From assembly GCF_045679555.1 (NCBI RefSeq), contig NC_092098.1:20862038-20926037 (forward strand): a stretch of DNA of 64,000 nucleotides, in the 5' to 3' direction. The stretch is from Salvelinus alpinus. Lineage: Eukaryota; Chordata; Actinopteri; Salmoniformes; Salmonidae. The notes beneath the pieces were generated by a model. It did not search any database, had not been told where the DNA came from, and saw only the letters and a list, made by a program, of their open reading frames with translations. The translations under genes and the position numbers were made by a program. Below are positions 1 through 43,800 of this stretch, piece by piece; position 1 is the stretch's first letter, and each line of letters begins with the position of its first letter.

Positions 1-871
1 AACACCCGGCTCAAACGGAGGGATGCTATCTTACCTAGATGGCTATGGCTATCTAACACTAGAACTCTTCCAAGTCAAGGTAAGCTTTTGGTTTTATGAT
101 TTTATTCCCACCGGGGCCCACCGGTATAACTGCTCAACTGCTTGCTAACTGTACTGCATGATTGTAGCGGGTTTACTAACGTGTCAATCCTAGTAGCTAT
201 GTTTACTTGACGTTAGCAAATATGGTGACAACGATGTAGGCTGTGTATAGTGGTTAGCGGTTATGATATGAAGGATTGGCTTGGAAAGTTTTTTTTTGCC
301 TGGTCACAGACAGCTGATGTGTTGTACACTGAAGTCCCCAAGCGAAGGGAAAAGGTGAGAGGAGGAGAGCGTGTAGATGCGAGAAGGAATTATCCAATGA
401 TCAAAGGGATCATGCTGTTTGTATGTGGCTGCTAATAAAGGGAACGGACGATTCTGTTGAAAAACGTTTCTTAAGGAAGCAAACGGAACAAAACGGATAA
501 TCATACCTGAATTTGTCCAATAGAAACTCTCGTTTGCAACTGGTGTAATGATTACACCCTAGGTCAGCTAGGGTGTAAGGCGGTATGGATTGTGCAAGGC
601 GGTATGGATTGTGTCAGTGTCTGTCACCTTGATTACTCAAATTTCCCTAGAGCTGTGCACCTACCTTTGTAAACTGTCATTCATAGGCTCGGTTGTAGCA
701 ACCTCATGATGGGTATAGGGAAGATTTGAGTATCATGTAGTAGCCTATCGATTTTACATTGAGCTGGGTGAATGGAATACGAATGAGAGTCATCCAATAT
801 ACTGTAATAGAAAGAAGGCCATGCTCATAAAAATATATCATCCTCCCTCATCTTCAGCGGCACCGACCGCC
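1..871. other. Non-coding DNA at window start, probably taf1 intron
   Basis: No exon of a recognised protein is visible here. The first 79 bases end in a possible splice donor (CAAG followed by gtaagc). In the phase required by the next taf1 exon they translate to a basic stretch that does not resemble the segment preceding DDDTxSVTS in human TAF1, so I do not call them a taf1 exon. They could be an untranslated exon of something else or chance. The remainder is unremarkable A/T-rich DNA. Confidence 0.4.
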
Positions 872-1026
872 GCTGTACCATACCCCATTCAAAGGAACTG
901 AAATATTTTGTCTTGCCCATTCACCCTCTAAATGGCGCACATAAACAATCAAGGCTTTCACCTGGATTCCTGGTCAGTTTATGTCATGGAAAGAGCAAAT
1001 GTCCTTAATGTTTTGTACACTTAGTG
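872..1026 (-). mobile_element. Truncated Tc1-like element, one end
   Basis: This stretch is the reverse complement of the left part of the short Tc1-like element at 11148-11631. It shares the phrases CTTAATGTTTTGTACAC, GTCTTGCCCATTCACCCTCT and CATACCCCATTCAAAGG. Its terminal inverted repeat ends at 1026 and is followed by TA, the expected target duplication. The other end is missing. It has diverged more than the 11148 copy. Confidence 0.7.
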
Positions 1027-1953
1027 TATATTAAAAGTATTAGTTCCTCACAGTAAGCTATTTGAAAAATCTTTCCAACAATCTCCCCCTCGATAATCAC
1101 CAATCCTCAGTGTGAAAGAGCTATAGAAGTTATAGGCCTACTGCTGCGTTGGCCTGTAGGCTATGAGTTCCATGCACACATTTCTTGTATCATTGTAGAT
1201 GGATCACAGTGTATGATCACGCGCCGCCTAGGAAGTCTTTATAAAATAATTGCCTCCACGTTTCCATGGTCGGATTTTGCCTTTAGGCTACTTTGTAGCA
1301 AGGTAAGATATGCCTCATAATATGAAATATAACATTCCAGTTTCAAACAATTAAGTATGCTTTCAAAATGCATACTGCCTCTAGCTCACATTGTAAAGTG
1401 GTGGGTGACGGGCTGATAGCCTGTTGCCTGCACTTGAATGGCGAATGAGAGGCGCGCTTTAATTACCAGTTGAGAAATAAAAATAGTAGCTCTCTTTGTC
1501 ATGCACCAAAACGGTTTTTAACACACAATTGCATTTAGAATTGTTGCATAATGAATGGGCTGATAAAATAAGGTTTTACTCCATCAGCAACCAGCTGAGG
1601 AGCTGCAGGTGAAATCCAGCTTAAAATGTGCACATGTGATAGTTGTGTTAGATAAATAAGATACATGATGACCAACAAAAATACACACAGGCCAATTTAA
1701 TTCCACAAAATTATGCAAATGAACCTGTAGACCCTATAAGCATGACGGTCAAATATATTTCCATCAATGAATAAAAAGCATTATTTTGCCATGTGATTTA
1801 TTTTTCTTTCTCCCTGTCATTTTGGCTGGAAACAGTTTTATTTATCGGCTTTTAATTTTTTTTTTGGGGGGGAGGGTCAAAAGCCAGCAATTGCCGGCTA
1901 ACGGAAACCCTGGTGTGTGTGGGTAACTTATCTCTCTCTGTGTGTCCCTGCAG
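1027..1953. other. Intron DNA before the first taf1 exon in view
   Basis: No gene is visible. Near 1880-1912 there is a short G/C-rich phrase (GCCGGCTAACGGAAACCC) that I remember as recurrent in fish repeats, but I cannot assign it. The last bases form the pyrimidine tract and AG acceptor of the taf1 exon that starts at 1954. Confidence 0.4.
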
Positions 1954-14364
<12,411 letters not shown>

Positions 14365-14376
14365 AGAAGTGTTCCA

Positions 14377-14426
<50 letters not shown>

Positions 14427-15409
14427 AAAGACGCAATTGTGCTCTACAATCATTATAACAGACAGATCCACATCCATACACGTGAGTTCAGGCTCACTAA
14501 ATGAATACACCTTAAACTTGCAGGCTGAATTACATGCACGTACTGTCATCATAACTTTATCTCATGTCAGTCAATCCCCCAATGATAGTTAAGACTGTTT
14601 GCTGTCCAGTCATTACCACACCTATGAAGTCTCTATGATAAACTCCTGTGAGATCAATATTGTGGCAGGATTAAATTGGAGTTGATGCTTTAAGTCAATG
14701 TTTTCTACTGGTTATGCTCTTTTCAGTGTACCGACACATGTATATATTTTTTTACAATTGAATAACATTTTATTTTATGGTTGTGCAGAACTTTGGCCAA
14801 AATGAAGATATTTCAATAGTCAGCTTTGACAATTGTTTGTTTTCAGTGCCAGGTCTCATCTCAACCTTTTGTCTTGAGACACTGGGTTGAGTGATGGAAA
14901 AATACTGTTATTCCCCATTAACTATTATGATTGCAGCCTGGATTGTCAGGCATTTGAGATGTTTCCAGCACTGTTACTAGGAAACTCAAACTTCCAAGGA
15001 GATCCTAAATAAAAACCAGAGATAAGACCATCATCTTTTCATTGTTTGTTTTTGGGGATAAATGTTAGCTGTATCTGATGTAACCACGTTGAAGTTGTCC
15101 TTTCGTGTTATGCTGTGTTGCTTATCGAAAGTAAGAGGCACTGTTGAATACCAATCTGCACTAACGCATTAACAATAATATTAAATGTTATTACAGAAAG
15201 TCTGTTGTGTGTTATATGACCAAGGTGCTTCCTGTTTCACTGCTTTTCCCTATCCTGCCATACCTTACAGGCTTGCCCTCGTTCATATCTTAGAACAGTG
15301 GTCATACAAGCTGAACATGAACTCTGCTCCACCGTAAACTCATTATTATTGTAAGGAGTCACGTAGATAGTGTGTGTTGAGTATAAAATAGTACAGTACG
15401 TGTGTGAAG
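14365..15409 (+). other. taf1 3' UTR and short intergenic gap
   Basis: An (AC)n microsatellite lies at about 14376-14424, 12 bp after the taf1 stop. A candidate polyadenylation signal AATAAA is at 15007-15012, which would give a 3' UTR of about 660 bp. No reading frame of interest follows. A TATAAAAT element at 15382 lies 28 bp before the ATG of the next gene. Confidence 0.55.
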
Positions 15410-18400
15410 ATGAAGGCCTATAGTTTGCTGTGTTTAATATTTCTACTCCCTGTCACAGTTATTGGACAAACGACACCAGATCGTGAGTAGCAATTATTTT
15501 CTGTTGAAATCTGTAAAGAAAGCCTGTCTTTTAGTATGAGTAGGATATGTATTACTGTAGCATTGAATCAGATGACATCTCTAAAATGAACATGTAAATA
15601 TACTGTAGGTTGTCCTGCTGCTTTTTGAGGTTTTGGGGGAGGAGTAGGTTAGGCCCTCTGTTTGAAGGTAGTGCTTTTTATCAAATTGTGTCTTCATTTT
15701 CTCATGATGTTGCTGGGCCAAATCACTATCACGTTTCAGTTACATCTTTTCTTTTTACATCCAGCAAGTTGTGTAACAGTAGATGACTTTGAAGTGTGCA
15801 CAGGAACTGCATATACATGCAATGCTGAGAAAAGCAAATGCTACTGTAAGGACAAGAAACCTTTCTGTAGGTACGTTTCAGCGCTTCCCACACTTGGCTC
15901 TACAGCTTTATCCTCAATATTTGTTTATTTTTTGAATTCAGACATTTTAAATTGTTACATAAATATGTCAGTTACCTCTGTTATGCTGTTCTTTTCAGGT
16001 GTAACAACTACATAGACAAGTGGTACATAGGGGAGAAGTGTGACTTTGAGTGGACCATATTGAACTTTGCCCTGGTATCATCTCTACCAGGACTGGCCCT
16101 GGCTGTTATTGTTGGTGTGATGGTCCAGTGTGTTCATTACTTAAGGAAACCAGCAAAGAAACAAAAGGATCGGACAATGAGGTGAGAGGGGGAGAGGGTT
16201 TGGACAAGATAGAATTCAGAGGCTCAATATTTCCATGTGTTTTGCACAGTGTATGGCACCTAGTATCAAGAAGTTGGCTTGTTAAAAAATAATAAGAAAA
16301 AGAAAATAAGATGTTGGGCATTAACTAAATAGATTCATATTTGTCCACAGTCTTGTTTCAGGTTTTAAATGACTACTCATGTCTTTATAATGTCATTTTC
16401 ACTTGTTTCAGTTACACAAACTATGCAATGTCACCGACAACATATTATGAAAATAATCAAGATGACATGTTCTCCAACACAGTGTTTGCCTCAGACATGC
16501 CGGTGAGTAGCTTGAGTTCCTTTACTCTCCAAGGTATTAGATCATTGGTATTTCCAATGGTGATGTCACATCCAGAGATCCTGCTAAGTTAGGGTTTCCT
16601 TATCTCCCAGTAGTGATACCGTTTGTGAATCATTCACCTCACCATCATTCACCCACCATCTTTTTTTTTGTCACACCGGATAGATGCATTGAAATGTTTT
16701 GTTTTCAAGCCTCTCAAAAATGTTTTCTTGCCTAGCATCATTATTTGGAAACGGTATATTGATGATATTTTTGTTCTATGGAGGGGTGATGCAAAACAGC
16801 TCCAGGCATTCCATGCTTTTCTTAACTCTTGTTCTGAGCATTTGAGATTTACTATGCAATCTGACACACGTCAAATCAGTTTCTTTGATCTTCTGATTTT
16901 GTGTAAAGATAATGTTCTATACACTGATCTTTACAGGAAACCTACTGGCCGTAACAGTTTGTTGAGGGCTGATAGTTGTCACCCGCTTCCCTTGAAAAAC
17001 AGTTTTCCCTACAGCCAATTCTGTCGAATCAAAAGAATTTGCTAAAAACAATCAGATTTCGACAGAAATATGGTTGAGACGCAAAGAAAATTAAAGGGGG
17101 GGGGGGGGGGGGGTACAAAAATTGTCAAATTAATACTGCCATTGAGAAAATTCGAAACAAGACATTACCTTTTTTCAAGGACAGTCTCGCAAAAATAATC
17201 ATTCTAACTACCCGCTATTCAAAATGCTCTGAACAAATTAAGGGAATTGTTCACAAACATTGCCACATTCTAAGATCCGATGATAGTATCGGTAATGTGT
17301 CTTCAGACCTTCCCTTGGTCGTATTCTCGCGGGGCAGAAATCTCAGAGATCAGTTGGTAAACTCTGATTTACCACCCCAAGATATCCCTGCACAACGTGT
17401 ATTTGCGCCCCTATTGGATGGAAACTACAAATGTAATGGCTGTGCTCAATGCAATGGCACTTATAAATGTAGATCCTTCAAACACCCCCAAACAGGGAAA
17501 CAGATCCCAATCAAAGGTGTTATAACGTGCTCCACTAAGGCAGTTATTTATCTTTTAACTTTTCCTTGTGGTAAAAATTATGTGGGTAAAACAAAACGAA
17601 TTTCGGAGCGTCGTAGCACCATTAGGTGCAAAAACTCGTCTTATCCAGTTGCTGACCACTTTTTGGAAGCAAACCACTCGATTTCGTCTCTATGTTATAT
17701 ACATGTCATCCTCCCTAGGATAGGGGTGACCTCAATAACTTATTGTTAAAACGAGAGGCTGCCTGGATCTTTAATTTAAAGACCCTTGCTCCCTTCGGTC
17801 TCAACGTAGACTTTGATCTGAAGCCATTCTTGTGATTTTGCTGTTGTAAATGTTTGTAGGCTTATGTAGCCAAATTGTATCTATGATCGTAGCCTATCCA
17901 TTTGTTTTTTTGTATGCTATTTTAATATATGAGAATTAACCAATGATATCAGGCCAATAACCGGCCATGATTACAGACACCTGTGTGTGTCTTTTGACAC
18001 TATATAAACGAGTCACCCCACAATGTTTGTCATTATACCCTGATGAAGACAGCTTGTCTGGCGAAACGTTGGACATTATCATTTTTGCATCTGACTCCTA
18101 GGGTGTGCGGCTCTCCTTTATTTTTCAAGATGTCTTCCACACCATCTCTTTAAGAGCCATTTGAATCTACTGTCTCTCCTGGACGTGGTTTGTGTCGTCC
18201 AAGTAGTGTAGTGTAAAGATGCCATAAGTGCAGATGCAGAGCAGATACATTCAGTAATAGACATGGCTGTCAATGTTGCATAGTAAACATGGCCCTGAGC
18301 AACAGTCTCTATTTTTCTTATTTCTTCAGAATCGGCCAAAGCCCCCCAGTGTCCAGCCCACCCAGGAGAGGTTTCCCATATCCAACTTACCCAACCGCCC

Positions 18401-21400
18401 TTACAGGTTAGCTGTCTGAACACAATTCAACATGCCATTGGTTTTCACCTTCATTATAGGGGCCCTTATTATAGTGTCTGCAATGTTATAATGTGCTTTC
18501 ATTGAAATGTTGATCTCTCTACTCTCTTAGCCTTCAACCAAACGGCATGCGGCCCACTTTAGATAGATTGTCTTTGACCAACCCTACAAGCCAGCCATAC
18601 AAGTAAGAACCTTGGTGTTGTTTGTTTTTGGTCTGATACTTTGTTCAATGGCAGTGATGTCATACCCATTCTGTGCGTATAACCATGTTCTGGGTGGTGG
18701 ACTAAAAATGGAAACAAAATTAGAGACGACAACAGGACAACGCCCCCTCGACAGTGAATGAGTAGTCACCCAGTGATTTGAGCAGCATGAGTCATGATGA
18801 CACGGACATTATCCTTATCAAATCTTATTAGTCACATGCGCCGAATACAACAGGTGTAGACCTTAGTGAAATGCTTACTTACAAGCCCCTAACCAACAAT
18901 GCAGTTAAAAAAAAGTATGAATAAGAATTGAAAGTAACAAGTAATTAAAGAGCAGCAGTAAAATAACAATAGCGAGACTATATACAGGGGGGTACCAGTA
19001 CAGAGTCAATGGGCGGGGGCACCGGTTAGTTGAGGTAATATGTACATGTAGGTAGAGTTATTAACGTGACTATGCATAGATGATAACAACAGAGAGTAGG
19101 GGGGGGGGGCAATGCAAATAGTCTGGGTGGCCATTTGATTAGATGTTCAGGATTCTTATGGCTTGGGGATAGAAGCTGTTTAGAAGCCTCTTGGACCTAG
19201 ACTTGGCGCTCCGGTACCGCTTGCCGTGCGGTAGCAGAGAGAACAGTCTATGACTAGGGTGGCTGGAGTCTTTGACAATTTTTAGGGCCTTCCTCTGACA
19301 CCGCCTGGTATAGAGGTCCTGGATGGCAGGAAGCTTGGTCCCAGTGATTTACTGGGCCGTTCACACTACCCTCTGTAGTGCCTTGCGGTCGGAGGCCGAG
19401 CAGTTGCCATACCAGGCAGTGATGTAACCAGTCAGGATGCTCTGGATGGTGCAGCTGTAGAACCTTTTGAGGATCTGAGGACCCATGCCAAATCTTTTCA
19501 GTCTCCTGAGGGGAATAGGTTTTGTCGTCCCCTCTTCACGACTGTCTTGGTGTGCTTGGACCATGTTAGTTTGTTGGTGATGTGGACACCAAAGAACTTG
19601 AAACTCTCAACCTGTTCCAGTATAGCCCCGTCGATGAGAATGGGGGCGTGCTCGGTCCTCTTTTTCCTGTAGTCCACAATCATCTCCTTTGTCTTGATCA
19701 CGTTGAGGGAGAGGTTGTTGTCCTGTCACCACACGACCAGGTCTCTGACCTCCTCCCTATAGGATGTCTTGTCGTTGTCGGTGATCAGGCCTACCACTGT
19801 TGTGTCATCGGCAAACTTAATGATGGTGTTGGAGTCGTGCCTGGCCGTGCAGTCATGAGTGAACAGGGAGTACAGGAGGGGACTGAGCACGCACCCCAGA
19901 GGGGCCCCCGTGTTGAGGATCAGCGTGGCGGATGTGTTGTTACCTACCCTTACCACCTGGGTTGGCCCGTCAGGAAGTCCAGGATCCTGTTGCATAGAGA
20001 GGTGTTTAGTCCCAGGGTCCTTAGCTTATTGATGGTGGAGCAGTAAGACGTGCTTGTTTTCATCCCATGTAAATCTTGTATTTTTCGGGGGGTTTTGTAT
20101 ACATTTCATTATCTCAATCTCTTTTTTCCTTTTTCGAATTAAATATACCTTCCTGCAACCCACCTCACCCAATGTGGTACGGATCTGCTATAAAAATAAA
20201 AAAAATTAAGACCTTATAACTGGAACCTCCATCAGCAGCTAGCCAGGTAATTAGCTACTAGCCTTTTAGTCATTGTTAGCCACTGCTAGTGGTCTTTACC
20301 TTTTGCTCAGACTCCAGCCGCTTTAGCCCGGATAGCCCGGATAATACCTGCCGGGCTGCACAGCACGATATCAGCCCTGAGCATATCGGACTGATTCCCC
20401 CCCCCCCCCACTACATCACCAGGTTCCTGCCGCAAGCTCTGGACGATCACACTGGATCTTCGCTGCTAGCTAGTTACTACCGAGTGGCTGACGCCCTTGT
20501 CCAGAAGCATGCACCAGCTAGCCTCGAGCTAGGACCATTTCCCGGCTAGCAAACGAAGTACACCAACTACAATACCTCTCTTGCCAATTGGCCTGGAACC
20601 TTTGTCGTCACGGAGCCCCGCCGATCCATCACGACTGGTCTGCTGACGTAATTCGGCCGATGTGCGCTCAACCGGCCTCCGCGTCGTGGATGTTGGTGTT
20701 GATCCATCTGCTAGCCCAGGCCTGCTAGCTTCCTGAACGCTGTGTCTCCCGCTCGCCTTACGTAGTAATCGACTACCTGAACTGCTCCCTGTTTCATCTT
20801 TGCTGCTCATTGGACCCTATGATCACTCAGCTACACAGCTGATGCCTGCTGGACTGTTCATTAACACGGTACTTCATTTTGTTTATCTGGTATTTGTTTA
20901 CCAGCCTTGAACTCAGGGCCTGTGTGTAGCTAACTGACCCTCTCTGCCCGTTCATCGCCATTTACCCATTGTTGTTGTCCTAGCTGTTTACCCGTTGTTG
21001 TCTTAGCTCTCCCAATCAACACCTGCCTTTCTCTAATGTCAATATGCCTTGTATACTGTTGTTTAGGGCAGCTCTTATTGTTTTATTTTACTGCGGAGCC
21101 CCTAGTCCTGCTCAACATGCCTCAGATAGCCCCCTTGTCCGAACCCCCACACATGCAGAGACCGCACCTAGCTTAACTGGCGCCTCCAGAGATGAAACCT
21201 CTCTCATCGTCACTCAATGCCTAGGTTTACCCCCACTGTACTCGCACCCTACCACACCCTTGTCTGTGCACTATGCCCTGAATCTATTCTACCACGCCCT
21301 GAAATCTGCTCCTTTTATTCTCTGTTCCCAAAGCACTAGACGGCCAGTACTTATAGCCTTTAGCCGTACCCTCATCCTACTCCTTCTCTGTTCCTCTGGT

Positions 21401-24400: not shown

Positions 24401-27400
24401 CTCATGCTGCCAAACATTCCCTCGTAAAACTGACTATCCTACCGATCCTTGACTTCGGCGATGTCATTTACAAAATAGCCTCCAACACTCTATTCAGCAA
24501 ATTGGATCCAGTCTATCACGGTGCCATCTGTTTTGTCACCAAAGCCCCATATACTACCCACCACTGCGACCTGTATGCTCTCATTGGCTGGTTCTCACTG
24601 CGTATTCGTCGCCAATCCCTCTGGCTCCAGGTCATCTATAAGTCTTTGCTAGGTAAAGCTCCGCCTTATCTCAGCTCACTGGTCACCATAGCAACTCCCA
24701 CCCGTAGCACTAGCTCCAGCAGGTATATTTCACTGGTCATCCCCAAAGCCAACACCTCCTTTGGCCGCCTTTCCTTCCAGTTCTATGCTGCCAATGACTG
24801 GAACGAATTGCAAAAATCACTGAAGTTGAAGACTTATATCTCCCTCACTAACTTTAAGCGTCAGCTGTCAGAGCAGCTTACCGATTGCTGCAGCTGTACA
24901 CAGCCCATCTGTAAATAGCCCATCCAACAATCTACCTACCTCATCCCCATATTTGTTTTAGTTTTTCTGCTCTTTTGCACACCAGTATTTCTACTTGCAC
25001 ATCTGCACATATATCACTGCAGTGTAAATTGCTAAATTGTAATTACTTCGCCTCTGTTGGCCTAATTATTGCCTTACCTCCTTACTTAATTTGCACACAC
25101 TGTATACAGATTTTTCTATTGTGTTATTGACTGTACGTTTGTTTTTCCCATGTGTAACTCTGTGTTGTTTTTGTCGCACTGCTTTGCTTTATTTTGACCA
25201 GGTCGCAGTTGTAAATGAGAACTTGTTCTCAACTGGCCTACCTGGTTAAATAAAGGTGAAATTAAAAAATTTAAAAATGTATGCGCTTTTGAGGCCACTA
25301 TGGTGTTGAACGCTGAGCTATAGTCCATGAATAGCATTCTCACATAGGTGTTCCTTTTGTCCAGGTGGGAAAGGGCAGTGTGGAGTGCAATAGAGATTGC
25401 GTAATCTGTGGATCTGTTATGGCGGTATGCAAATTGGAGTGGGTCTAGAGTTTCTGAGATAATGGTGTTGTGAGCCATGATCAGCCTTTCAAAGCACCTC
25501 ATGGCTACAGATGTGAGTGCTACGGGTCGGTAGTCGTTTAGGCAGGTTACCTTAGTGTTCCTGGGCACAGGGACAATGGTGGTCTGCTTAAGACATGTTG
25601 GTATTACAGACTCAGACAGGGAGAGGTTGAAAATGTCGGTGAAGACACTTGCCAGTTGGTCAGCGCATGCTCGCAGTACACGTCCTAGTAATACGTCTGG
25701 CCCTGCGGCGTTGTGAATGTTGCCCTGTTGAAAGGTCTTACATCGGCTGCGGAGAGCGTGATCACAGTCTTCTGGAACAGCTGGTGCTCTCATGCATCCC
25801 CACAGTGTTATTAGCCTCGAAGCGAGCATAGAAGTAGTTTAGCTCGTCTGGTAGGCTCGTGTCACTGGACAGCTCTCGGCTGTGCTTCCTTTTGTAGTCT
25901 GTAATGGTTTGCAAGCCTTGCCACATCCGACAAGCATCACAGCCGGTGTAGTAGGATTCGATCTTAGTCTTGTATTGACGCTTTGCCTGTTTGATGGTTC
26001 ATCGGAGGGCATAGCAGGATTTCTTAGAAGCTTCTGGGTTAGAGTCCCGCTCCTTGAAAGGGGCAGCTCTAGCCTTTAGTGCAGTGTGGATGTTGCCTGT
26101 AATCCATGGCTTCTGGTTGGGGTATGTACTTACGGTCACTGTGGGGATGATGTCATCGATGCACTTATTGATGAAGCCAGTGACTGATGTGGTGTACTCT
26201 TCAATGCCATCGGAGGAATTCCGGAACATATTCCAGTCTGTGCTAGCAAAACAGGCATGTAGCTTAGCATCTCCTTCATCTGACCATTTTTTAAATTTAT
26301 CGAGTCACTGGTGCTTCCTGCTTTAATTTTTGCTTGTAAGCAGAAATCAGGAGGATAGAATTATGGTCAGATTTGCCAAATGGAGGGCGAGGGAGAGCTT
26401 TGTATGCATCTATGTGTGTGGAGTAATGGTGCTCCAGAGTTTTTTTCCCTCTGGTTGCAGATTTAACATGCTGATAGAAATTTGGTAAAGACTGATTTGA
26501 GGTTCCCTGCATTAAAGTCCCCTGCTACTAGGAGTGCCGCCTCTGGGTGAACGTTTTCCTGTTTGCTTATGGCGGAATACAGCTCATTCCAGTGCGGTCT
26601 TAGTGCCAGCATCAGTCTGTGGTGGTATGTAGACAGCTACAAAAAATACAGATGAAAACTCTCTAGGTAGATAGTGTGGTCTACAGCTTATCATGAGATA
26701 CTCTACCACAGGCGAGCAAAACCTCGAGACTTCCTTAGATATCGTGCACCAGCTGTTATTTACAAAAATACATAGTCCGCCGCCCCTTGTCTTACCTGAT
26801 GCCGCTGTTCTATCCTGCCGATACAGCGTATATCCATATCCATCATGGTCATTTCTCTTTCGTCATTGAAGAAAGGGAAAAGTCCACGAGTATGCGACCC
26901 AATTTAGATAGATCATCTTTATCCAACCCTGAAAGCCAGCCATACAAGGAAGCCTCTCTCTGTCCTTTGATTTGTGTGTTTTCAATCTGATATAGTTCTT
27001 TGTTCCATGACAAGTTACGATTGGGTGCCCTTTGAACTACATTATTATGATTGTTTTTATATGGTTTGTCTGCTTCGGAAAGTTGACTAGTTTTCTGGAT
27101 TCAGCTATGCTACAGGTATGACGCAGCCCCTGGGTAACCCCTATCCCAAGTCTCCATCGCCAAGGAACCCGTATGAAGACAGAGCGCCACCTCCAGACTG
27201 TTATGACGACCAGCACATGAGACCAACACAGCCCCCACCAGGACACAACGGCATGATGGTGAGTCATTGATTCCCCCTACTGAACAGTAGGATGAATTCA
27301 ACTGATCAACTGGACAAGTAAACTGCAGGGTGAAACTGTGGCTAAAACATTTGGTTTTGATCTTAGCCTAAAGGTCAAATATTAGTTAGACCCTAGGTGA

Positions 27401-27581
27401 CCAGGCTGAAATAGAAAAGCAGAATTTTGCACTGTGTTTTGACATGAGATCTGTTTCTATCTTCCAGAGAGAAGGCATGTCTGGGTATCCTGCGCCCAGT
27501 TCACCTGCTCCCCTCTATTCAGCACCAGAGTACAACCTCAGTTCCCAGTTTCCCAGAGCCCAGATAGGGAGACACTACTGA
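15410..27581 (+). CDS. Single-pass membrane protein, EGF-like Cys cluster, unrecognised
   Basis: Eight exons with consistent AG/GT sites and frame: 15410-15482, 15765-15870, 15999-16181, 16412-16502, 18330-18406, 18531-18602, 27105-27258, 27468-27581 (stop TGA). They give 289 residues. The start [20 protein letters not shown] is a clear signal peptide. Residues about 25-75 are Cys-rich ([42 protein letters not shown]) and look EGF-like. A single hydrophobic helix ([20 protein letters not shown]) is followed by a basic stop-transfer stretch ([14 protein letters not shown]). The cytoplasmic tail is rich in Pro, Asn and Tyr ([32 protein letters not shown]) and ends AQIGRHY. I infer a type I plasma-membrane protein. 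I do not recognise the family. The 8.5 kb intron before exon 7 is filled with LINEs. AATAAA at about 27839 may end the transcript. Confidence 0.8.
16660..18120 (+). mobile_element. Penelope-like retroelement (Neptune/Poseidon type), 5'-truncated
   Basis: Lies in an intron of the small membrane-protein gene. The first reading frame (16668-17045) has the palm motif [10 protein letters not shown] of a Penelope-like reverse transcriptase and the downstream block [24 protein letters not shown]. The second (17297-17749) has a CxxC cluster ([13 protein letters not shown]) followed by a GIY-YIG endonuclease core ([19 protein letters not shown], then a basic helix and [17 protein letters not shown]). 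A 17-18 bp G run (about 17096-17113) and stops separate the two. The 3' part ends with the phrase TGATGAAGACAGCTTGTCTG then GCGAAACGTTGG, seen in Penelope terminal repeats. The copy is defective: the 5' part of the RT is missing. Confidence 0.8.
18022..18075 (+). ncRNA. Decayed hammerhead-like ribozyme motif of the Penelope element
   Basis: The core CTGATGA is at 18040-18046 and GAAAC at 18062-18066, separated by a hairpin (GACA-GCT-TGTC). This is the order CUGAUGA, stem II, GAAA of hammerhead ribozymes, which are known in terminal repeats of Penelope-like elements. Here stem II does not close directly onto GAAA (an extra TGGC intervenes), and I cannot draw stems I and III with confidence. 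I therefore call it a probable inactive relic. Confidence 0.45.
18822..20036 (-). mobile_element. Rex1/L2/CR1-type LINE, 3' half (first part of split copy)
   Basis: The minus strand carries reverse transcriptase palm and thumb sequence: [39 protein letters not shown] and [18 protein letters not shown] (19726-19995), then [20 protein letters not shown] (about 19600) and [20 protein letters not shown] (19361). The 3' end is at about 18822 with TTATTAGTCACATGCGCCG. Frameshifts split the coding sequence. The element stops abruptly at about 20036 and its next upstream segment resumes at about 25281, because another LINE has inserted between. Confidence 0.85.
20037..25280 (+). mobile_element. L2-clade LINE (RSg-1-like), defective
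   Basis: Starts with a G/C-rich 5' region (about 20220-21040). An open frame at 21044-21436 ends in [19 protein letters not shown], a 2A-like motif. Endonuclease-domain pieces follow ([20 protein letters not shown] near 21550; [20 protein letters not shown] near 21770), then [20 protein letters not shown] and [11 protein letters not shown] at 22800-22900. The RT continues at 23824-24276 ([40 protein letters not shown]). The YADD-type catalytic block expected next is missing by an internal deletion near 24250-24280, after which the C-terminal domain continues to 24918. The 3' tail (CCTACCTGGTTAAATAAAGG at about 25236-25255) resembles the tails of the tRNA-derived SINEs here. It is inserted into the minus-strand LINE that flanks it. 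Confidence 0.85.
21865..22678. mobile_element. Solo-LTR-like fossil inside the L2-type LINE
   Basis: About 0.8 kb of unrelated sequence interrupts the endonuclease domain of the LINE: coding sequence stops matching after SEFVL and resumes with [12 protein letters not shown]. The insert begins TGTCGTGGC and ends CCGCCACA, a TG...CA arrangement, and carries AATAAA about 50 bp before its right end, which fits a single long terminal repeat. No internal coding region is present. Exact ends and family (perhaps Gypsy-like) are uncertain. It is younger than the LINE it interrupts. Confidence 0.5.
25281..26880 (-). mobile_element. Rex1/L2/CR1-type LINE, 5' half (second part of split copy)
   Basis: The minus strand (25829-25116 and upstream frames) reads [60 protein letters not shown] and [19 protein letters not shown]. 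Farther upstream are an RT N-terminal block (26229-25999) and endonuclease-end sequence (26512-26297, [20 protein letters not shown]). This continues the LINE at 18822-20036 in the same orientation, so both pieces are one element. The upstream border is near 26830-26890. Its outer part is included in the inverted duplication beginning at 26624. Confidence 0.85.
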
Positions 27582-27788
27582 GGACAAACAGGAGTGACCA
27601 TGGCCTGAATTAGAACGCCACCAATTTCACTATCACAATTCAAAAAAGTTCAACTCGTATATAATTTAAAGTGAGTGGAAAATGTAAACATTCAAGGACT
27701 TTGTAAACTTTAATTTAACGTACTAAAAAATGTATTGTGGCTGGCTGCTAAGTTTTATGAGTAATCCCCATTGACTGATTATGAAATT
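26624..27788 (+). repeat. Left arm of a large inverted duplication
   Basis: This 1,165-bp segment is repeated in reverse complement at 28013-29007. Every stretch I compared by eye was identical, apart from a 170-bp block (26909-27078) that is absent from the other arm. The arm spans the outer end of the minus-strand LINE, a dead exon copy, and the last two coding exons plus most of the 3' UTR of the membrane-protein gene. Confidence 0.9.
26890..26949 (+). pseudogene. Dead duplicate of exon 6 of the membrane-protein gene
   Basis: Reads [19 protein letters not shown], against [19 protein letters not shown] in exon 6 (18531-18602). The similarity continues into the following intron (TTTTCAATCTGATA... 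here, TTTTTGGTCTGATA... there). The donor that is AA/gtaaga in exon 6 is AA/ggaagc here, so it cannot splice normally, and no good acceptor precedes it. I read it as an intragenic duplication that has lost its splice sites. Confidence 0.75.
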
Positions 27789-28012
27789 TGCTCATATTTT
27801 TGCAGTTTTAAGATTTATTGTTTGACAATTTTGTAACTAATAAAGGCTATTATTCCTAGATTCAATCCGTAGCGTGGATCAACACTAAAGCGCGATTGAA
27901 ATGTAAAGGCAATGTTCCGATGTTTCAATTTCCGATCGCTTTAACTCGGATCTCCACACTACAGATTGAGTAGTCAATTCCAATTTCATTTGAAATTCAA
28001 CTTCAATTCAAG
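27789..28012. other. Central spacer of the inverted duplication
   Basis: 224 bp lie between the arms. It contains the AATAAA at about 27839 that could serve the membrane-protein gene and then unique A/T-rich sequence. No gene or known repeat is visible. Confidence 0.8.
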
Positions 28013-29007
28013 AATTTCATAATCAGTCAATGGGGATTACTCATAAAACTTAGCAGCCAGCCACAATACATTTTTTAGTACGTTAAATTAAAGTTTACAA
28101 AGTCCTTGAATGTTTACATTTTCCACTCACTTTAAATTATATACGAGTTGAACTTTTTTGAATTGTGATAGTGAAATTGGTGGCGTTCTAATTCAGGCCA
28201 TGGTCACTCCTGTTTGTCCTCAGTAGTGTCTCCCTATCTGGGCTCTGGGAAACTGGGAACTGAGGTTGTACTCTGGTGCTGAATAGAGGGGAGCAGGTGA
28301 ACTGGGCGCAGGATACCCAGACATGCCTTCTCTCTGGAAGATAGAAACAGATCTCATGTCAAAACACAGTGCAAAATTCTGCTTTTCTATTTCAGCCTGG
28401 TCACCTAGGGTCTAACTAATATTTGACCTTTAGGCTAAGATCAAAACCAAATGTTTTAGCCACAGTTTCACCCTGCAGTTTACTTGTCCAGTTGATCAGT
28501 TGAATTCATCCTACTGTTCAGTAGGGGGAATCAATGACTCACCATCATGCCGTTGTGTCCTGGTGGGGGCTGTGTTGGTCTCATGTGCTGGTCGTCATAA
28601 CAGTCTGGAGGTGGCGCTCTGTCTTCATACGGGTTCCTTGGCGATGGAGACTTGGGATAGGGGTTACCCAGGGGCTGCGTCATACCTGTAGCATAGCTGA
28701 ATCCAGAAAACTAGTCAACTTTTCTAAATTGGGTCGCATACTCGTGGACTTTTCCCTTTCTTCAATGACGAAAGAGAAATGACCATGATGGATATGGATA
28801 TACGCTGTATCGGCAGGATAGAACAGCGGCATCAGGTAAGACAAGGGGCGGCGGACTATGTATTTTTGTAAATAACAGCTGGTGCACGATATCTAAGGAA
28901 GTCTCGAGGTTTTGCTCGCCTGTGGTAGAGTATCTCATGATAAGCTGTAGACCACACTATCTACCTAGAGAGTTTTCATCTGTATTTTTTGTAGCTGTCT
29001 ACATACC
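28013..29007 (-). repeat. Right arm of the inverted duplication (carries reversed exons)
   Basis: Reverse complement of 26624-27788 minus 170 bp. It carries inverted copies of the last two exons of the membrane-protein gene (exon copies at about 28220-28333 and 28543-28696 on the minus strand). Their splice sites look intact, but no upstream exons are arranged for them. The arm stops at 29007 inside former LINE sequence. Confidence 0.9.
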
Positions 29008-31592
29008 TCATGAAGTGGAGAATTTAAGTTAAATTCAATTCAAATTTCAACAATCTTCAAGTGGAATTAGACTGTGTTGAATTGTTAAAAAAAAAAAAAT
29101 ATTAAATGTAGTCTTTGGAATTTCATTTAATTGGAATTCAATATTGTACATTTCCGAGTTAGTATCAAAATTGGACTGCAGGATTTGTTTTAAATCATTT
29201 CAACTTATATTTTTATATTTACAGTATAGCTACACTGTATGAATAGTGACATAATCAGCCTGAAGGAATTAAATTTGAATTGGAATATACAGTATCGAAC
29301 ATTGGAATTTAATTATCTCTAAATTCAAAGACTGACCGGGAATTTGAATTGAATTAAATGGAATTTACAGGGAGAGGGAATTTTATTAGAATTTAATTTG
29401 TTGAATTGACCCCAACCCTGCTATGTAATAGGCTAGTCTGATTTGTTACAATTTTTTGGTCATGAGGGTTATCTGCCAGTGGTTCCCAAACCGTGGGTCA
29501 GTACTAGGGGAGAACGACTGCCCCCTCTCATTGAAGCCACGGTAGTTCAAGGCTAACCGCAGTACTGCAGGCATTGTTAGCAGAAAACATGATCCCCCCA
29601 TTATAGTGAATTATAACAGATTGTTTTTAAATCGCACACAGAAGTTATAAGGATAATTTAGTTGCTAATGGCAGCCTGCTGTACCCCGGTCGGCCTTCAA
29701 CTTGAGTTACTCAATGAGAGCGTGCAGCACTGAGCTCGCATGCAACGTCACTTCCTGGAGTAGCTCACACTGCGCATGATAGGTCTCCATGAGGCACCTA
29801 AAACCTGTAAATGAATTACCTCTGGTTCGTTCCTATGTGGAAAATTAATGGGGAAATAATAGGATTTTGTTATAAACGCAGAAAATAAGGTCTGAGGTTT
29901 ACACAGCTTAGGAGATCTTATACGTTTTGTTTATCCAAAAACACAATTTCCACATAGGCTTTGTCCAACGAACCATGGTGGAGTTGGTGCCTACAAGAAA
30001 ACAACATTACTATTTGTCTTACAAAGGAATGAATGGTGTCACGTGATCTAGGACTTTGACGGTCGCAGGGGTCCAGGTGTGACGTTTTTTGTGCATTGCA
30101 AAAATATATATATGGAAAAACACTTTGTGTAAACTTAAACGACTAAAACCAAATCGAAAGTATGTAGAAAAGATAATGGACATATAATACCCTATAATCT
30201 GAGAATTTACAATCAGCAAAATAAACGCTAGATAATCAGGCACCCATTGATTTTATATTTGAGGATAAGAACACGTCAAAATGTGTAGAATTGACGGAAA
30301 TTAGCTTAAGTGAAAATTCTCAGCTCCTTGGAAAAATGTATAGAATTGCAACCTATTATTTCAGCGCCATGGCAAAATGTGTAGAATTGCTGGAAATTAG
30401 CTTCAAAACTGCACAATCTTCTCTGCTGCCAAGATGATGTTCTATGTATGTTTTTTTCACCGCTCAACCCTTATGGTGGGTCGCGACTCAAGACACCTCA
30501 ATTGGTCGGTCACAAAGCAAAAAAGTTGTATACAATGGTAAGTCAAGCAACATCAATTAAAGATACTTTCAAAAAGAACATTTATTTTCTACAAATCAGA
30601 TGTTAATAATTTTAAATCAATAAACAAAATACAATCTTAATTTCACCTCTAGGTCAATCATGGGATAACTTGGTGTCAGCAGTCGCCCTTATTGTAAGAT
30701 GCAAAACACTGTCATCTTAACACAAATCCACTTGTTGGTACATTCTTTGTTACTGAATGATGGCAAAAAGAGTGAATGAAAGTAATAGGTTGAGGTGAAC
30801 AATTCATCAGGAGATGTCTTTATTTACTAAAGAAGCTCCTAATATTTCAGTTGACAGACAGAGAATAGATAACACTGATTTGGATCTGATACATGAGACA
30901 TTCCTGATAGTAAACATTTTATTGGCTTTGAGCAACATGATTTTACCAGATTTTACCACATGGGAAAAATTAAAACCCCTGATTGTTTGACAAGCGATTA
31001 TTTCAAAGCATAAAGGACAAATACAAGTAAAAAGCTGGGTTGTCCACATCCCCTTTTCATGCTTTTGAATACAGAGAAAACTGATACAGATGACTGTTTA
31101 TGTTTGAAATTAGAACTGGGTCTTTAAATGCATGTTTTTCACAATTTGCTAGCAGTAGCATTACTAAAAATCATACAATGACTTGTCAGATAATGGTTAC
31201 CCCAAGTTCAACAGTGAGAATACAGTCAACAGATAAACACGCCATTAGTTAAAATCAAATTACAGCATTATCTTACCACTGATACTGCATATGACAAGTG
31301 GTGTGCTATTCAAACAACCCAGACAAGCATACTACGGTACTGAGAAAATGTGTGCTTTCAAGCAGTGTTCTGATTCAGGATTTACCTGACTTGAGGTTTG
31401 TTTGAATAGCACCCCAGGTTTGAGTACTAATGGTGATGTGAGGACAAGTTAATAAATTACTAATGCAGTTCGAAGAAAATGTGACAATTGTCATCCTTTA
31501 TTTATCACATTGAAATAATTGTATTTCCCTGCTCTATAGTGAGTGAGAATCAGATTGTTCTGAATATGGGAAAGGGTGTGTGAAGAAGCACT
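29008..31592. other. Intergenic A/T-rich DNA and znf711 3' UTR
   Basis: No gene is visible. About 29464 begins CAGTGGTTCCCAAACCGTGG, and about 30470 has GGTGGGTCGCGACTCAAGAC, a phrase pair I associate with fish hAT-type non-autonomous elements, so 29464-30540 may be one. Three imperfect copies of AAAATGTGTAGAATTG occur at about 30278, 30333 and 30372. On the minus strand an AATAAA (TTTATT at 31497-31502) lies about 90 bp after the znf711 stop. Confidence 0.45.
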
Positions 31593-34500
31593 TTACATTA
31601 AAACATCCTTGTGATGCCGTGCAATGTGCTGGCTCTTTTCAGAGGGCCTACGGAAGCCTTTAGTGCAGTAGTCACAGCGGTGGGGATAGTCCTTGGTGTG
31701 GATGGATATGACGTGCCGTTTGAAACCTGAAGCGTCCGAGGAGCTGTACTCACAGTACTGGCACTGGTACACTTTCCGCCCACTGTGGGTCTTCATGTGC
31801 TTCTTCAGTTCCAGCTGATGCCTGAAGCCCCGTCGGCAGCGCTTGCACTTGAAGGGTAAGTCTTTGGTGTGGACGGACAGGATGTGGCGACTGAGTATGA
31901 AGGGGTCTGGGGTCTTAAAGTCACAGTGGCGGCATTGGTGCAGCCTGGCACCTTTGTGAGTCTCTGTGTGTTTTTTCAGCTCCGAGGGCCGGTGGAAGCC
32001 CTTTTCACACACGTCACACTTGTGAGGGAAGTCCTTGGTGTGCACGGAGATGATGTGGCGCTTCAGGTCGCTGGAGTTGGTGCTCTTGTGCTCGCAGTGC
32101 GGACACTGGTGCGTCTTGTGGCCCTGGAATATCTCCATGTGCTTCTGCAGCTCCCGCTCGTCAGAGAAGGCCTGGGGACAGTGGCCACACTTGAACGGCA
32201 GCTCCGCTCCATGCTTGCTCTTTATGTGGGTCTTCAGGTTAGACTGGTCGGCACAGCAGAACTCACAGTGCTGGCAGTGGTAGGGCTTCTCACCCGTGTG
32301 GGTCCTCATGTGCTTTTTGAGCTCAGAGGGGTGGCGGAAACCTTTAGCACACTCCACACACACATGGGCAAAGCTCTTGCTGTGGACAGCCAGCAAGTGG
32401 CGGTTGAGAAGGCCCTGCTCGGCTGTCTCATAGTCACAGTACTTACAGTGGTGCAGCTTGGGCTCCTGGTCACGTAGGATGAGCTTATTGGAGCTGAGTG
32501 GGCTCTCCACACAGTAACGCCTTGTGACCTCAGTGAATTCTGAGACCCGGTCACTCTTCACTATGAGCTTGTGGCCCTCCAGGTGGTTGTGGAAGTTTAC
32601 CTTCTTGTTGGTGGTGAAATCGCAGTCTGTGCACTGGTACTTCTTCTTGAAGATGTGGTCGGGGTGGTTCTTCATGTGGATCTTCAGGAAGCCTCGCGAT
32701 CTGAACTTCTTCCCGCAGATGTTGCAGGGGTACACAGTCAGAGGCTGGCCATCTGGACCAATGATCACAGCTGAGGAAAAGTGTGGAGGCAAAAAAGAAC
32801 AGGAATTGTTAGGCCTACATCTAAAAAAGAAAAGTATAATCTTACAAAATGATGCAAGCTTTTTGAAAATGTTTTAATGAACATAGAACCCCATACCTGT
32901 CTGACACTGACGTGTCTCTCCCTTTTTCTTTTTCTTGATCTTCTGTTTGAGAGCTCTACTTGTACTCAGGCTGTCGCTGATCTTCAGGTAATGTGTCCCT
33001 GTGTTGTTCTTGTTCTCCAGCCTGGAGTCCAGACTGTTACCTAAGGAAAATTATACACCAATTCAACACACCTAAAAATCGTGACATGAACAAATCTAAA
33101 TGTTAGGCTAAATGTAGAATTATCTTACGCCATACTGAATGTATGTCTCTGAGGAACTTGTGTCTATGGAGAAAAGGAGTAGGCTTTACCATAAGCTGCA
33201 GCCCAGGCAACAGTGCCGAAGTTCTTATTGTGGCTGGAGTCATCCAGTGAGTCCTGGATGGCAGGGGCATCCTCCTCTCCCACTATCACCTCCATGTACA
33301 CCTCATCCGCCATCTCAGTGCAGTCTGCTCACAGAAAAGGAGGAAGGAAAACTCAGTCACTTAATTTAACACTGCAACCATCTATTGGGACAAAAATAAT
33401 AAGGCAGCCATATCGTTTAATATGTTGTGCTGTATAAGGGATTGGAGGAAAGGCTGCTAATTCAGGGGACTCACTGATCTCTGAATCCTCCTGGGACGGG
33501 TCTTTCACTGCCATGTAGACCATCTTCTCTCGAGACAGCTTGCCAATGCCCCCAGTCTCCAGCACTGCGTGACCGTTGTGGAAGTCGCTCTCAGCTACAA
33601 TCTCTGTGCCACCTGCACTCACAGTAAATGTCTGAATTCAGGGAAACTGAACAGAGGTGTATCTTTCAAATTGATCGGAACTTGTAAGAGTCCTTACCTA
33701 TGTCAACATCATCATCAGCCTCTGCCTTGAAGATGTAGACTTTGATGCACTCAGAGTCGTAGTCACCCTCTTTGGAGCCATCCTCCATCACCTCAGAACC
33801 CATCTTCAGGGGTGTGTCCTCCATGTCCAACTTCTCCCCAACATCGTCCACTGCACAAACAATAGCACACTCATCATTATACACTATCAGATTCATCCTA
33901 TTATTAGAGTCAAAATTTGTGTTGGAGCAGTCTAGTAGTACCAAGAAAATAAGACGTGTCTTACAGGAGATCATCAGGTAGTCCTCGGAGACGCTCTCTC
34001 CAGCCTCGTTGTCCGGCTCCTGGATGGTGACTGCAGAGTCTTCAATCTCCTCCTGCTCCTCCACATACGTCTCTGAGTTGCAGTTGGAGACCATGACCTC
34101 CTCAGTGACAATTTCAAACACCTGGTCAGGAACCCTATCAGATTCCTCTATGAGATCTGTTGTCAGCACATGGTGATGGTGGTCAGAATCCAGCACGTCC
34201 TCAATGGCCACCTCGGCCCCCAGGACCGACTCAGTCATGATTATGCCGTCAGGCTCGTCGCTGCAGCAGATGTCTGGCCCCTCTACAACCTCTGACCCCA
34301 GGTCATGCTCAAACATGATTCCCTCCTCGTCAGTCACCACGTCTGACACCAGCACCGCCTCTGGCACAGAAACCACAATGTGATCATCGTCAATGTGGGC
34401 CATTCCTGCCACTGGGGAAGTCAGGAGGAACTGTTACTCTTATCAGTTCGAGCACACACAGATACAATCAAATAAACTAAAGGCCATGTACTATTAGTTC

Positions 34501-37825: not shown

Positions 37826-40800
37826 TTACCTATGGGTATTGGCAGGCTGCCCCAGTCTGCCCCAAGCCAGGGTAGTGGACCTCTCAGGGGAGGCATAGAC
37901 ACGACCATGAGTTGATAGGTACCCTCCAACTGAAAAGTCCTTACTGGGACAGGGGATCCTCAAACCAGAGGGGCTGAGGGACTGGGCTCTCGGCAGCCCT
38001 CTAATAGACAAGGCCTGAAATGATTCTCTCAGGGACTGCCGTGCTGCTCCAGTTGCAGGGGGGTCACTGGAGTTCAAGGTTTTGGCAGAAACAGATGAAG
38101 ATCGGCCACCACTCCTAAGCCTGACTGAAGACTCACCTAGGAGGCAATCACAAGTTTGGAAATGTTATGGACTAAACATGTCTGTCTGAAATAAAGACAA
38201 GTTAAAAAAAATATATTAAAAAAAAGGCAGCTCCAGAATCTTCTATAAGTGTTCAATTGGGTTGAGATCTGAACCAGTATTCACAAAGCATCGCAGAAGA
38301 GTTCCTAGGAATCCTGTTAAAACCTGTTTTAGGACAAAAAAACTCCAAGGTCAGTTAGTTTTAGGATGATGGTAGCCCTATCCTGCAGTCAATGACCAAA
38401 AGTGCCTTGTCTGGCCTCATGGGTGGAATTTTCATAATTTCATCGTTAAAAGTTAATTTTTTTAACCGACGAAAATCGGGTGTTTCTATGTCAAACAGTT
38501 TTGTTATATTTCAGTCTTCTGTGATGTATATAAAGTGCAATATTGGGATGCAAACTCCACATTGAATACACAAGCATTTCGCTACACCCACAATAACATC
38601 TGCACGTGTATGTCACCAAAACATTTTTTATTTGTATTACACTCTATAAATGACATGGTACAGGTGTCTTCTTTTTTTAAGACCGTAACCATGTGTGTGA
38701 GTTGTATACTTTTGTTTCAAAATAGATCTGTTTAAGACTACCAAGAATCACTCTGTGTGACCCCGATTAAGCCCACTGCAGTAAAAGGCTAGACACTGCT
38801 CAGACAAACTCTGAGCCAGGAGTAAAACCAATTCCTCTGTGGAGATGGGAGAACCTTCCAGAAGGTCATCTCCACCCCTCAACCAGTATTCTACAAGAGC
38901 ACAGACACAAGGGACTACAGACACACCGGTCTCTACATTGCAGATGAGCTGAAGGCAGTCATCAATGACCTTGGACCACAGAAGGTATTTGCACTGGTGA
39001 CAGACAATGCTGTGAACATGAAGGCTGCTTGGTCTAAAGTGGAGGAGTCCTACCCTCACATCACACCCATTGGCTGTGCTGCTCATGCATTGAATCTGTT
39101 CCTCAAGGACATCATGGCACTGAAAACAATGGATACACTCTACAAGAGAGCCAAGGAAATGGTTAGGTATTATCAGCAATCTAGTTATATCAGCAATCTA
39201 TCTCACCAAGCAAAGTGAGAAGAATAAGAGCACCACATTGAAGCTGCCCTGCAACACCCGTTGGGGTGGTGTTGTCATCATGTTTGACAGTCTCCTGGAG
39301 GGAAAGGAGTCTCTCCAAGAAATGGCCATATCACAGTCTACTGATATGGACAGCCCCATCAAGAGGATCCTCCTGGATGATGTATTTTGGGAGAGAGTGG
39401 TAAGCAGCCTGAAACTCCTGGAACCTATAGCAGTAGCAATTGCACGGATTGAGGGAGACAATGCCATCCTGTCTGATGTTCAGACTCTGCTTGCAGATGT
39501 AAGAGAAGACATCTGTACAGCCCTGCCCACTTCAATGGTGCTCCAAGCAGAGGAAACTGCAATTCTGAAATACATCAAAAAGCTTAAAGACTTCTGCCCG
39601 AAGCCCATACATGATGCAGCGTACATGTTACATCTCATCAGCCACCTGGTGGAAGGGACTTTGTGGATCTGAAGCTCTTTCCCCTGTTGCCTCTATCATC
39701 CTCCAAATCCCACCAACACCAGCCGCCTCAGAACACAACTTGTCCTTGTTAAGGAACACACACACCAAAGCACGCAACAGGCTGACCAATACAATGGTTG
39801 AAAAATTGGTGGTCATCTGGGCAAATTTGAGGCATTTTGAGCCTGACAACGAGCCATCCTCAACAAGGTTGGAAAGTGACAGTGAAGATGAGGCCTCAGA
39901 GTCTGATGTTCAAGAGGTGGACATTGAGGAGGTCCAGGGAGAAGACATGAGAGGAAGACAACAAAAGCTTTAGTTTCTAGACTATCATTTTACAGATGTG
40001 TGTTGAAAACGTTTTTGGGAGATGCGATGGATCATTGAGGATCATTCAATATTCCCTTTCTTTTGTTGTTCAGTGAAATCATCCCATGTGAAGAGTCAAC
40101 TAATTTAATAAAAGTAAAATTTGTAACTAAATTGTTTTTCTAAATGTATATTGGAAGGATTTAATAATTAAGGTAAAATGTTTATGTTTCCGTCTCCATA
40201 TAGTAAATACAGTTGAAGTCGGAAGTTAACATACACTTAGGTTGGAGTCATTAAAACCCTTTTTTCAACCACTCCACAAATTTCATGTTAACAAACTATA
40301 GTTTTGGGAAGTCGGTTAGGACATCTACTTTGTGCATGACACAAGTCATTTTTCCAACAATTGTCTACAGACAGATTATTTCACTTATAATTCACTGTAT
40401 CACAATTTCAGTGGGTCAGAAGTTTCCATACACTAAGTTGACTGTGCCTTTAAACAGCTTGGAAAATTCCAGAAAATGATGGCATGGCTTTAGAAGCTTC
40501 TGATAGGCAAATTGACATCATTTGAGTCAATTGTAGGTGTACCTGTGGATGTATTTCAAGGCCTACCTTCAAAATCAATGTCTCTTTGCTTGACATCATG
40601 GGAAAATCAAAATAAATCAGCCAAGACCTCAGAAAAAAATTTGTAGACCTCCACAAGTCTGGTTCATCCTTGGGAGCAATTTCCAAACGCCTGAAGGTAC
40701 CACGTTCATCTGTACAAACAATAGTACGCAAGTATAAACACCAGGGGACCATGCAGCCGTCATACCACTCAGGAAGGAGGCGCGTTCTGTCTCCTAGAGA

Positions 40801-43800
40801 TGAACGTACTTTGGTGCGAAAAGTGCAAATCAATCACAGAACAACAGCAAAGGACCTTGTGAAGATGCTGGAAGAAACAGGTACAAAAGTATCTATATCC
40901 ACAGTAAAACGAGTCCTATATCAACACAACCTGAAAGGCCGCTCAGCAAGGAATAAGCCACTGCTCCAAAACCGCCATTAAAAAGCCAGACTACGGTATG
41001 CAACTGCACATGGGGACAAAGATCGTACTTTTTAAAGAAATGTCCTCTGGTCTGATAAAACAAAAATAGAATTGTTTGGCCATAATGACCATTGTTATGT
41101 TTGGTGGAAAAAGGGGAGGCTTGCAGGCCGAAGAACACCATCCATAACGTGAAGCACGGGTGTAGCAGCATCATGTTGTGGGGGTGCTTTGCTGCAGGAG
41201 GGATTGGTGCACTTCACAAAATAGATGGCATCATGAGGTAGGAAAATTATGTGGATATATCGAAGCAACATCTCAAGACATCAGTCAAGAAGTTAAAGCT
41301 TGGTCGCAAATGGGTCTTCCAAATGGACAATGACCCCAAGCATACTTCCAAATTTGTGGCAAAATGGCTTAAAGACAACAAAGTCAAGGTATTGGAAATC
41401 AAATCAAATCAAATTTTATTAGTCACATACACATGGTTAGCAGATGTTAATGCGAGTGTAGCGAAATGCTTGTGCTTCTAGTTCCGACAATGCAGTAATA
41501 ACCAACAGTAATCTAACCTAACAATTCCACACTACTACCTTACACACACACAAGTGTAAGGGATAAAGAATATGTACATAAAGATATATGGATGAGTGGT
41601 GGTACAGAACGGCATGGCAGATGCAGTAGATGGTATAGAGTACGGTATATACATATGAGATGAGTACTGTAGGGTATGTAAACATAAAGTGGCATAGTTT
41701 AAAGTGGCTAGTGGTACATGTATTGCATAAAGATGGCAAGATGCAGTAGATGATATAGAGTACAGTATATATACATATGAGATGGGTAATGTAGGGTATG
41801 TAAACATTGTATTAAGTGGCATTGCTTAAAGTGGCTAGTGGTACATTTTTACATAATTTCCATCAATTCCCATTTTTAAAGTGGCTGGAGTTGAGTCAGT
41901 ATGTTGGCAGCGGCCGCTAAATGTTAGTGGTGGCTGTTTAACAGTCTGATGGCCTTGAGATAGAAGCTGTTTTTCAGTCTCTCGGTCCCTGCTTTGATGC
42001 ACCTGTACTGACCTCGCCTTCTGGATGATAGCGGGGTGAACAGGCAGTGGCTTGGGTGGTTGTTGTCCTTGATGATCTTTATGGCCTTCCTGTGACATCG
42101 GGTGGTGTAGGTGTCCTGGAGGGCAGGTAGTTTGCCCCTGGTGATGCGTTCTGCAGACCTCACTACCCTCTGGAGAGCCTTACGGTTGTGGGCGGAGCAG
42201 TTGCCGTACCAGGCGGTGATACAGCCCGACAGGATGCTCTCGATTGTGCATCTGTAGAAGTTTGTGAGTGCTTTTGGTGACAAGCCGAATTTCTTCAGCC
42301 TCCTGAGGTTGAAGAGGCGCTGCTGCGCCTTCTTCACAACGCTGTCTGTGTGGGTGGACCAGTTCAGTTTGTCCGTGATGTGTACACCGAGGAACTTAAA
42401 ACTTTCCACCTTCTCCACTACTGACCCGTCGATGTGGATAGGGGGGTGCTCCCTCTGCTGTTTCCTGAAGTCCACAATCATCTCCTTTGTTTTGTTGACG
42501 TTGAGTATGAGGTTATTTTCCTGACACCACACTCCGAGGGCCCTCACCTCCTCCCTGTAGGCCGTCTCGTCGTTGTTGGTGATCAAGCCTACCACTGTAG
42601 TGTCATCCGCAAACTTGATGATTGAGTTGGAGGCGTGCATGGCCACGCAGTCGTGGGTGAACAGGGAGTACAGGAGAGGGCTCAGAACGCACCCTTGTGG
42701 GGCCCCAGTGTTGAGGATCAGCGGGGTGGAGATGTTGTTACCTACCCTCACCACCTGGGGGCGGCCCGTCAGGAAGTCCAGGACCCAGTTGCACAGGGCG
42801 GGGTCGAGACCCAGGGTCTCGAGCTTGATGACGAGTTTGGAGGGTACTATGGTGTTAAATGCTGAGCTGTAATCGATGAACAGCATTCTCACATGGGTAT
42901 TCCTCTTGTCCAGATGGGTTAGGGCAGTGTGCAGTGTGGTTGCGATTGCGTCGTCTGTGGACCTATTGGGTCGGTAAGCAAATTGGAGTGGGTCTAGGGT
43001 GTCCGGTAGGGTGGAGGTGATATGGTCCTTGACTAGTCTCTCAAAGCACTTCATGATGACGGAAGTGAGTGCTACGGGGCGGTAGTCGTTTAGCTCAGTT
43101 ACCTTAGCTTTCTTGGGAACAGGAACAATGGTGGCCCTCTTGAAGCATGTGGGAACAGCAGACTGGGATAAGGATTGATTGAATATGTCCGTAAACACAC
43201 CAGCCAGCTGGTCTGCGCATGCTCTGAGGACGCGGCTGGGAATGCCGTCTGGGCCTGCAGCCTTGCGAGGGTTAACACGTTTAAATGTTTTACTCACCTC
43301 GGCTGCAGTGAAGGAGAGCCCGCAGGTTTTGGTAGGGGGCCGTGTCAGTGGCACTGTATTGTCCTCAAAGCGGGCAAAAAAGTTGTTTAGCCTGTCTGGG
43401 AGCAAGACATCCTGGTCCTCGACGGGGCTGGTTTTCTTTTTGTAATCCGTGATTGACTGTAGACCCTGCCACATACCTCTTGTGTCTGAGCTGTTGAATT
43501 TCGACTCGATTTTGTCTCTGTACTGAGACTTGGCCTGTTTGATTGCCTTGCGGAGAGAATAGCTACACTGTTTGTATTCGGTCATGCTTCCGGTCACCTT
43601 GCCCAGGTTAAAAGCAGTGGTTCGCGCTTTCAGTTTCACGCGAATGCTGCCGTCAATCCACGGTTTCTGGTTTGGGAATGTTTTTATCGTTGCTGTGGGT
43701 ACGACATCGTCAATGCACTTCCTAATGAACTCGCTCACCGAATCAGCATATTCGTCAATATTGTTGTTGGACGCGATGCGGAACATATTCCAATCTGCGT

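Follow-up and report, generated by a model that had tools for sequence, protein, structure and literature searches.

How does the end of a gene come to lie beside an exact, inverted copy of itself, and does such a copy belong to the animal or only to its assembly? We addressed these questions for a locus in the window, the whole 64,000-nucleotide stretch of Salvelinus alpinus DNA that was analyzed, which sits on contig C13 of an assembly of 2.37 Gb in 928 contigs. A slip of repair or replication appears to have placed a backward copy of a gene's end, about 1 kb long, just downstream of the original. The event would be a known kind of DNA mistake, in an unusually long example.

Layout of the inverted arms

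The initial annotation described inverted arms around a 224-bp centre that are identical to each other and include the last two exons of a membrane-protein gene. Self-comparison of the window and a script confirmed all of these features. There are two perfect inverted blocks, 27079-27788 against 28722-28013 (710 bp) and 26624-26908 against 29007-28723 (285 bp). Once reverse-complemented, 28013-29007 reads as 26624-26908 followed by 27079-27788, with 995 of 995 letters identical and 0 mismatches. The description of the arms as reverse complements of each other therefore holds exactly over 995 bp, but not over the full span: the left side extends over 1165 bp (26624-27788) and the right arm over 995 bp (28013-29007), and the latter is missing 170 bp (26909-27078) found only on the left. 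In the features below, C1 refers to a paralogous block on another contig of the same genome.

26624-26908, plus strand: left arm, distal segment; exact reverse complement of 28723-29007
26909-27078, plus strand: ancestral 170-bp stretch that the left arm has and the right arm lacks, with a counterpart in C1
27079-27788, plus strand: left arm, proximal segment, the source copy, containing the last two exons; exact reverse complement of 28013-28722
27105-27258, plus strand: penultimate exon, placed by eye after TTCAG and before GTGAGT; conserved in C1
27468-27581, plus strand: last coding exon, to TGA, placed by eye; conserved in C1
27789-28012, plus strand: centre (loop), 224 bp, holding the gene's AATAAA at 27839
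27862-27969, no strand: imperfect palindrome in the loop, self-complementary at 74 of 115 aligned positions; a gap in the C1 alignment
28013-29007, minus strand: right arm, a derived insert in inverted orientation, flanked by 28012 and 29008; the collinear C1 block lacks it
28220-28333, minus strand: last coding exon, inverted copy, hand-computed from the exact arm match
28543-28696, minus strand: penultimate exon, inverted copy, hand-computed from the exact arm match

Arms of this kind did not turn up in a control sample of 20 slices of 10 kb each, drawn at random from this genome (200,000 bases in all, including 12,203 N). None of the inverted matches of at least 100 bp reported there was perfect, the nearest being one of 206 bp (97.1%) and one of 200 bp (97.5%), each with a spacing of 1211 bp.

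The membrane protein matched no Pfam family over a 177-aa stretch of joined pieces. According to Pfam, its neighbours encode a bromodomain and C2H2 fingers, and we take these genes to be TAF1 and ZFX, respectively. Repeats are found elsewhere in the window. An 849-codon open frame at 41927-44473 (minus strand), which presumably encodes a LINE reverse-transcriptase protein, has relatives at 19232-20019 (78%) and 25287-25713 (77%). Inverted copies at 40208-41396 and 48371-49556, some 7 kb apart and 92.7% identical, hold frames that we assume to be Tc1-like transposase, and 7251-8255 is a tandem array of 36-bp units (12-aa repeats), with several frames open.

The paralogous block and the ancestral state

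The C1 block is collinear with the window in a single orientation, matching it at 12626-16610 (downstream of the bromodomain exon, including membrane-protein exons), 26889-27613 (the last two exons), 27973-28016, 29007-29430, and 30586-32536 (the zinc-finger gene). On the bromodomain side, this comparison covers only sequence downstream of the bromodomain exon. The product of the transmembrane exon has a C1 match at 80% over 56 residues, and that of the preceding exon one at 56% over 34.

At the site of interest, C1 (L009) matches 27973-28016 from 6224 to 6181 and matches 29007 onward from 6178, with 2 bases between. The alignment holds one copy of the exons, omits the right arm, and reads straight through the insertion site; by this comparison, the left arm came first, and the right arm was inserted into the C13 copy afterwards. 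This polarity is set by a paralogue rather than an orthologue. Nearby sequence was copied in inverted orientation, and its source was left intact.

The same comparison bears on the 170-bp stretch. Bases 1-149 match C1 at 76%, and searches for a third place found matches only here and in C1, so the right arm is without these bases by loss. Separately, a piece resembling 26889-26953 of the window matches three places in a C1 intron (L009:7391-7696), where it forms a small local repeat.

Junctions and mechanism

The C1 site reads ...TTGAATTCACTCATGAAG. In the window, ...CAAG is followed by the arm, which runs from AATTTCATAA to CATACC, and the sequence resumes with TCATGAAG. At the inner junction, AATT is common to the arm and the inferred ancestral site, where it matches the continuation of the paralogue. 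This motif is self-complementary, as a fold-back requires, is present in the donor at 27785-27788, and begins at 0.7% of nearby donor positions. At the outer junction, about 1 bp is shared and, judged by eye, 2 or 3 target bases were apparently lost. Since the ancestral junction was read from a paralogue whose non-coding sequence has diverged by 14.7%, these microhomology lengths, including that of the AATT at the initiating junction, are approximate. AT content is 68% at 27950-28012 and 74% at 29008-29400, against 57% for the window.

In our judgment, fold-back template switching of the 3-2-1-4 type probably produced the right arm as a local templated insertion. Having folded back across about 224 bp, an AATT-terminated DNA 3' end close to 28012 would have paired with the matching AATT at 27785-27788. 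Some 710 bp would then have been copied, 170 bp skipped, and a further 285 bp copied, after which the new end would have been sealed, putatively by end-joining, to the original sequence that resumes at 29008. The switch points follow one another along the window in the order 3 (26624), 2 (27788), 1 (28012), and 4 (29008). The derived state (through the paralogue), the orientation, the exactness of copying, the skip, and the junctions are shown by the sequences, whereas the primed strand, the polymerase, the end joining, and the timing of the skip (during copying or later) are inferred. The marks left here do not tell a replication switch apart from break repair.

The skip itself is blunt. An explanation by a hairpin within the 170 bp was unsupported: no unusual folding was found in the stretch (z = +1.08, with 172 of 200 shuffles folding at least as well). 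Splicing was rejected, given blunt ends that carry neither GT-AG nor CT-AC.

These features also bear on whether the arm arose by retroposition of an antisense transcript or by LINE-carried transduction. One end of the arm does lie in a dispersed repeat (26624-26836; genome copies at 94-97% among the 40 of 3683 candidates scored), near an antisense RVT_1 fragment at 25119-25838 (minus strand) by the distal segment of the left arm, and a 170-bp gap could recall an intron. Yet the gap lacks splice-like ends while the gene's own intron is retained in the copy, no poly(A) is visible in the sequence, and the insertion junctions lack a target-site duplication of 3-14 bp, such that we regard this origin as extremely improbable. 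A transposon with terminal inverted repeats was likewise rejected, the whole unit having been matched once (40 of 3683 candidates scored) and the spacer once (40 of 93 scored).

Assembly or animal

Perfect identity is also what an error-made copy would have, and the arm could have been placed by a chimeric or fold-back read or by local misassembly. The assembly is scaffolded or masked, with 4 of the 20 control slices containing runs of 100 to 5000 N, although the window contains 0 N. In one study, roughly 0.55-0.6% of reads in ONT genomic libraries are fold-back reads, and the segments of one that is shown are separated by about 2 kb (PMC12870357). The spacer is thus no defence on its own, and the argument in the initial annotation that a unique spacer speaks against an artefact loses its force. 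The same study describes PacBio HiFi data as virtually free of fold-back reads (PMC12870357), a point whose weight depends on the technology used here. What disfavours an artefact is the return at 29008 to sequence that C1 has, which a single fold-back would not produce, together with the clean 170-bp internal skip and the junctions, where a blunt skip and 4 bp of inner microhomology would be unexpected from such an error. In addition, the full spacer was found once among the 40 of 93 candidates scored, with no alternative version of the locus. On balance, we consider an artefact unlikely.

Age of the event

Having favoured fold-back template switching, we can ask when the copy was made. The arms differ at 0 of 995 positions, whereas non-coding divergence from C1 is 14.7% (67 of 456; Jukes-Cantor 0.164). 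The 95% upper bound on divergence between the arms is about 0.3%, or 0.4% on the 732 non-coding sites alone, which corresponds to 1.8-2.5% of the non-coding divergence from C1. The exon borders used for this count were 1 to 5 bases off those in our exon list, which leaves the conclusion unchanged. Freely evolving arms would imply a recent event, but its apparent age could have been lowered by conversion or polishing. Of the three origins initially proposed (a very recent event, ongoing conversion between the arms, and an assembly artefact), the first is the best supported by these numbers.

Close inverted repeats can undergo conversion, and an older inverted duplication could have been kept identical by arm-to-arm gene conversion or by short-read polishing. 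Identity alone does not separate this history from a recent origin. However, conversion often leaves diverged edges; here, identity reaches the last base at all segment ends, and yet the 170-bp difference persists. We therefore hold long-term homogenization to be quite improbable.

Loop, palindrome, and transcription

The palindrome in the loop (27862-27969) folds somewhat better than shuffled versions, of which 2 in 200 did as well (z = -2.07). Roughly its first half (27856-27924) resembles a dispersed MITE-like repeat with at least 41 further matches (40 of 93 candidates scored), and of eight copies fetched, six were self-complementary over 177-206 bp and two were not. This degenerate palindrome might have helped the fold-back, which is a guess. 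A bolder version, in which a MITE-like palindromic repeat landing behind the gene seeded the fold-back and so generated a kilobase inverted pair in one step, strikes us as a long shot.

Transcription through both arms had been proposed to yield a long hairpin RNA, an idea that the polyadenylation signals weaken. With the gene's AATAAA located within the loop, ordinary transcripts would be expected to stop short of the right arm, in which an ATTAAA follows at 28087. On the minus strand, five AATAAA and three ATTAAA lie between the zinc-finger frame and the right arm, and neither motif was found from 29007 to 28013, leaving the inverted exons without a signal of their own. Judged from these motifs, a hairpin RNA from both arms would be possible but unlikely. 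Published hairpin-RNA loci (PMC10317233) resemble this locus in carrying an inverted copy of part of a gene, but differ in that the AATAAA here falls in the loop. The inserted arm is probably without function.

Relation to published events

Among template-switch mutations in great apes, the 3-2-1-4 order is one of two majority patterns (Walker et al., PMC7954356); intra-strand switching requires point 2 to precede point 1, and the surroundings are AT-rich. Our locus shares the inverted copy of nearby upstream sequence, the return to the original, and the AT-rich setting, but those events are short range, in contrast to 995 bp with an internal 170-bp skip. In yeast, local insertions arise by microhomology-primed fold-back synthesis followed by end-joining capture (Yu et al., PMC11724301). 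Our arm is similar in this respect, with one end primed by microhomology and the other captured in an end-joining-like manner, but the yeast insertions measure 2 to about 150 bp, the majority being under 14 bp, and the far greater length here counts against the parallel.

Human inverted duplications with a disomic spacer offer a further comparison. Among 21 sequenced junctions, 13 had 2-8 bp of inverted microhomology, 3 had repeats of about 300 bp, and 5 had insertions (PMC3907307). An unduplicated spacer with short inverted microhomology at its edge (4 bp here) is common to both, whereas the human cases are large, have spacers of 766-70,466 bp, and are tied to dicentric chromosomes, unlike our interstitial copy with its 224-bp spacer. 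Small inverted triplications (PMC13334657) likewise combine a small inverted copy, a spacer, and a tie to replication error, but their DUP/INV/DUP structure measures about 150 bp and has a 30-bp spacer. For many human-chimpanzee microinversions (<33 bp), one study preferred break-induced replication at microhomology over template switching (PMC8755829). By titles and the beginnings of abstracts, we found no published description of the present locus, and the match found in the salmonid literature on inverted duplication concerns TRIM genes.

If the copy is real in the animal, it means that perfect inverted arms in assemblies need not be artefacts. It would also provide a long, fully readable fold-back insertion, in which a paralogous block fixes the ancestral state and the junctions record the mechanism. 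And should seeding by a MITE-like palindrome prove true, it would constitute a general route from such repeats to new hairpin-RNA loci directed against host genes.
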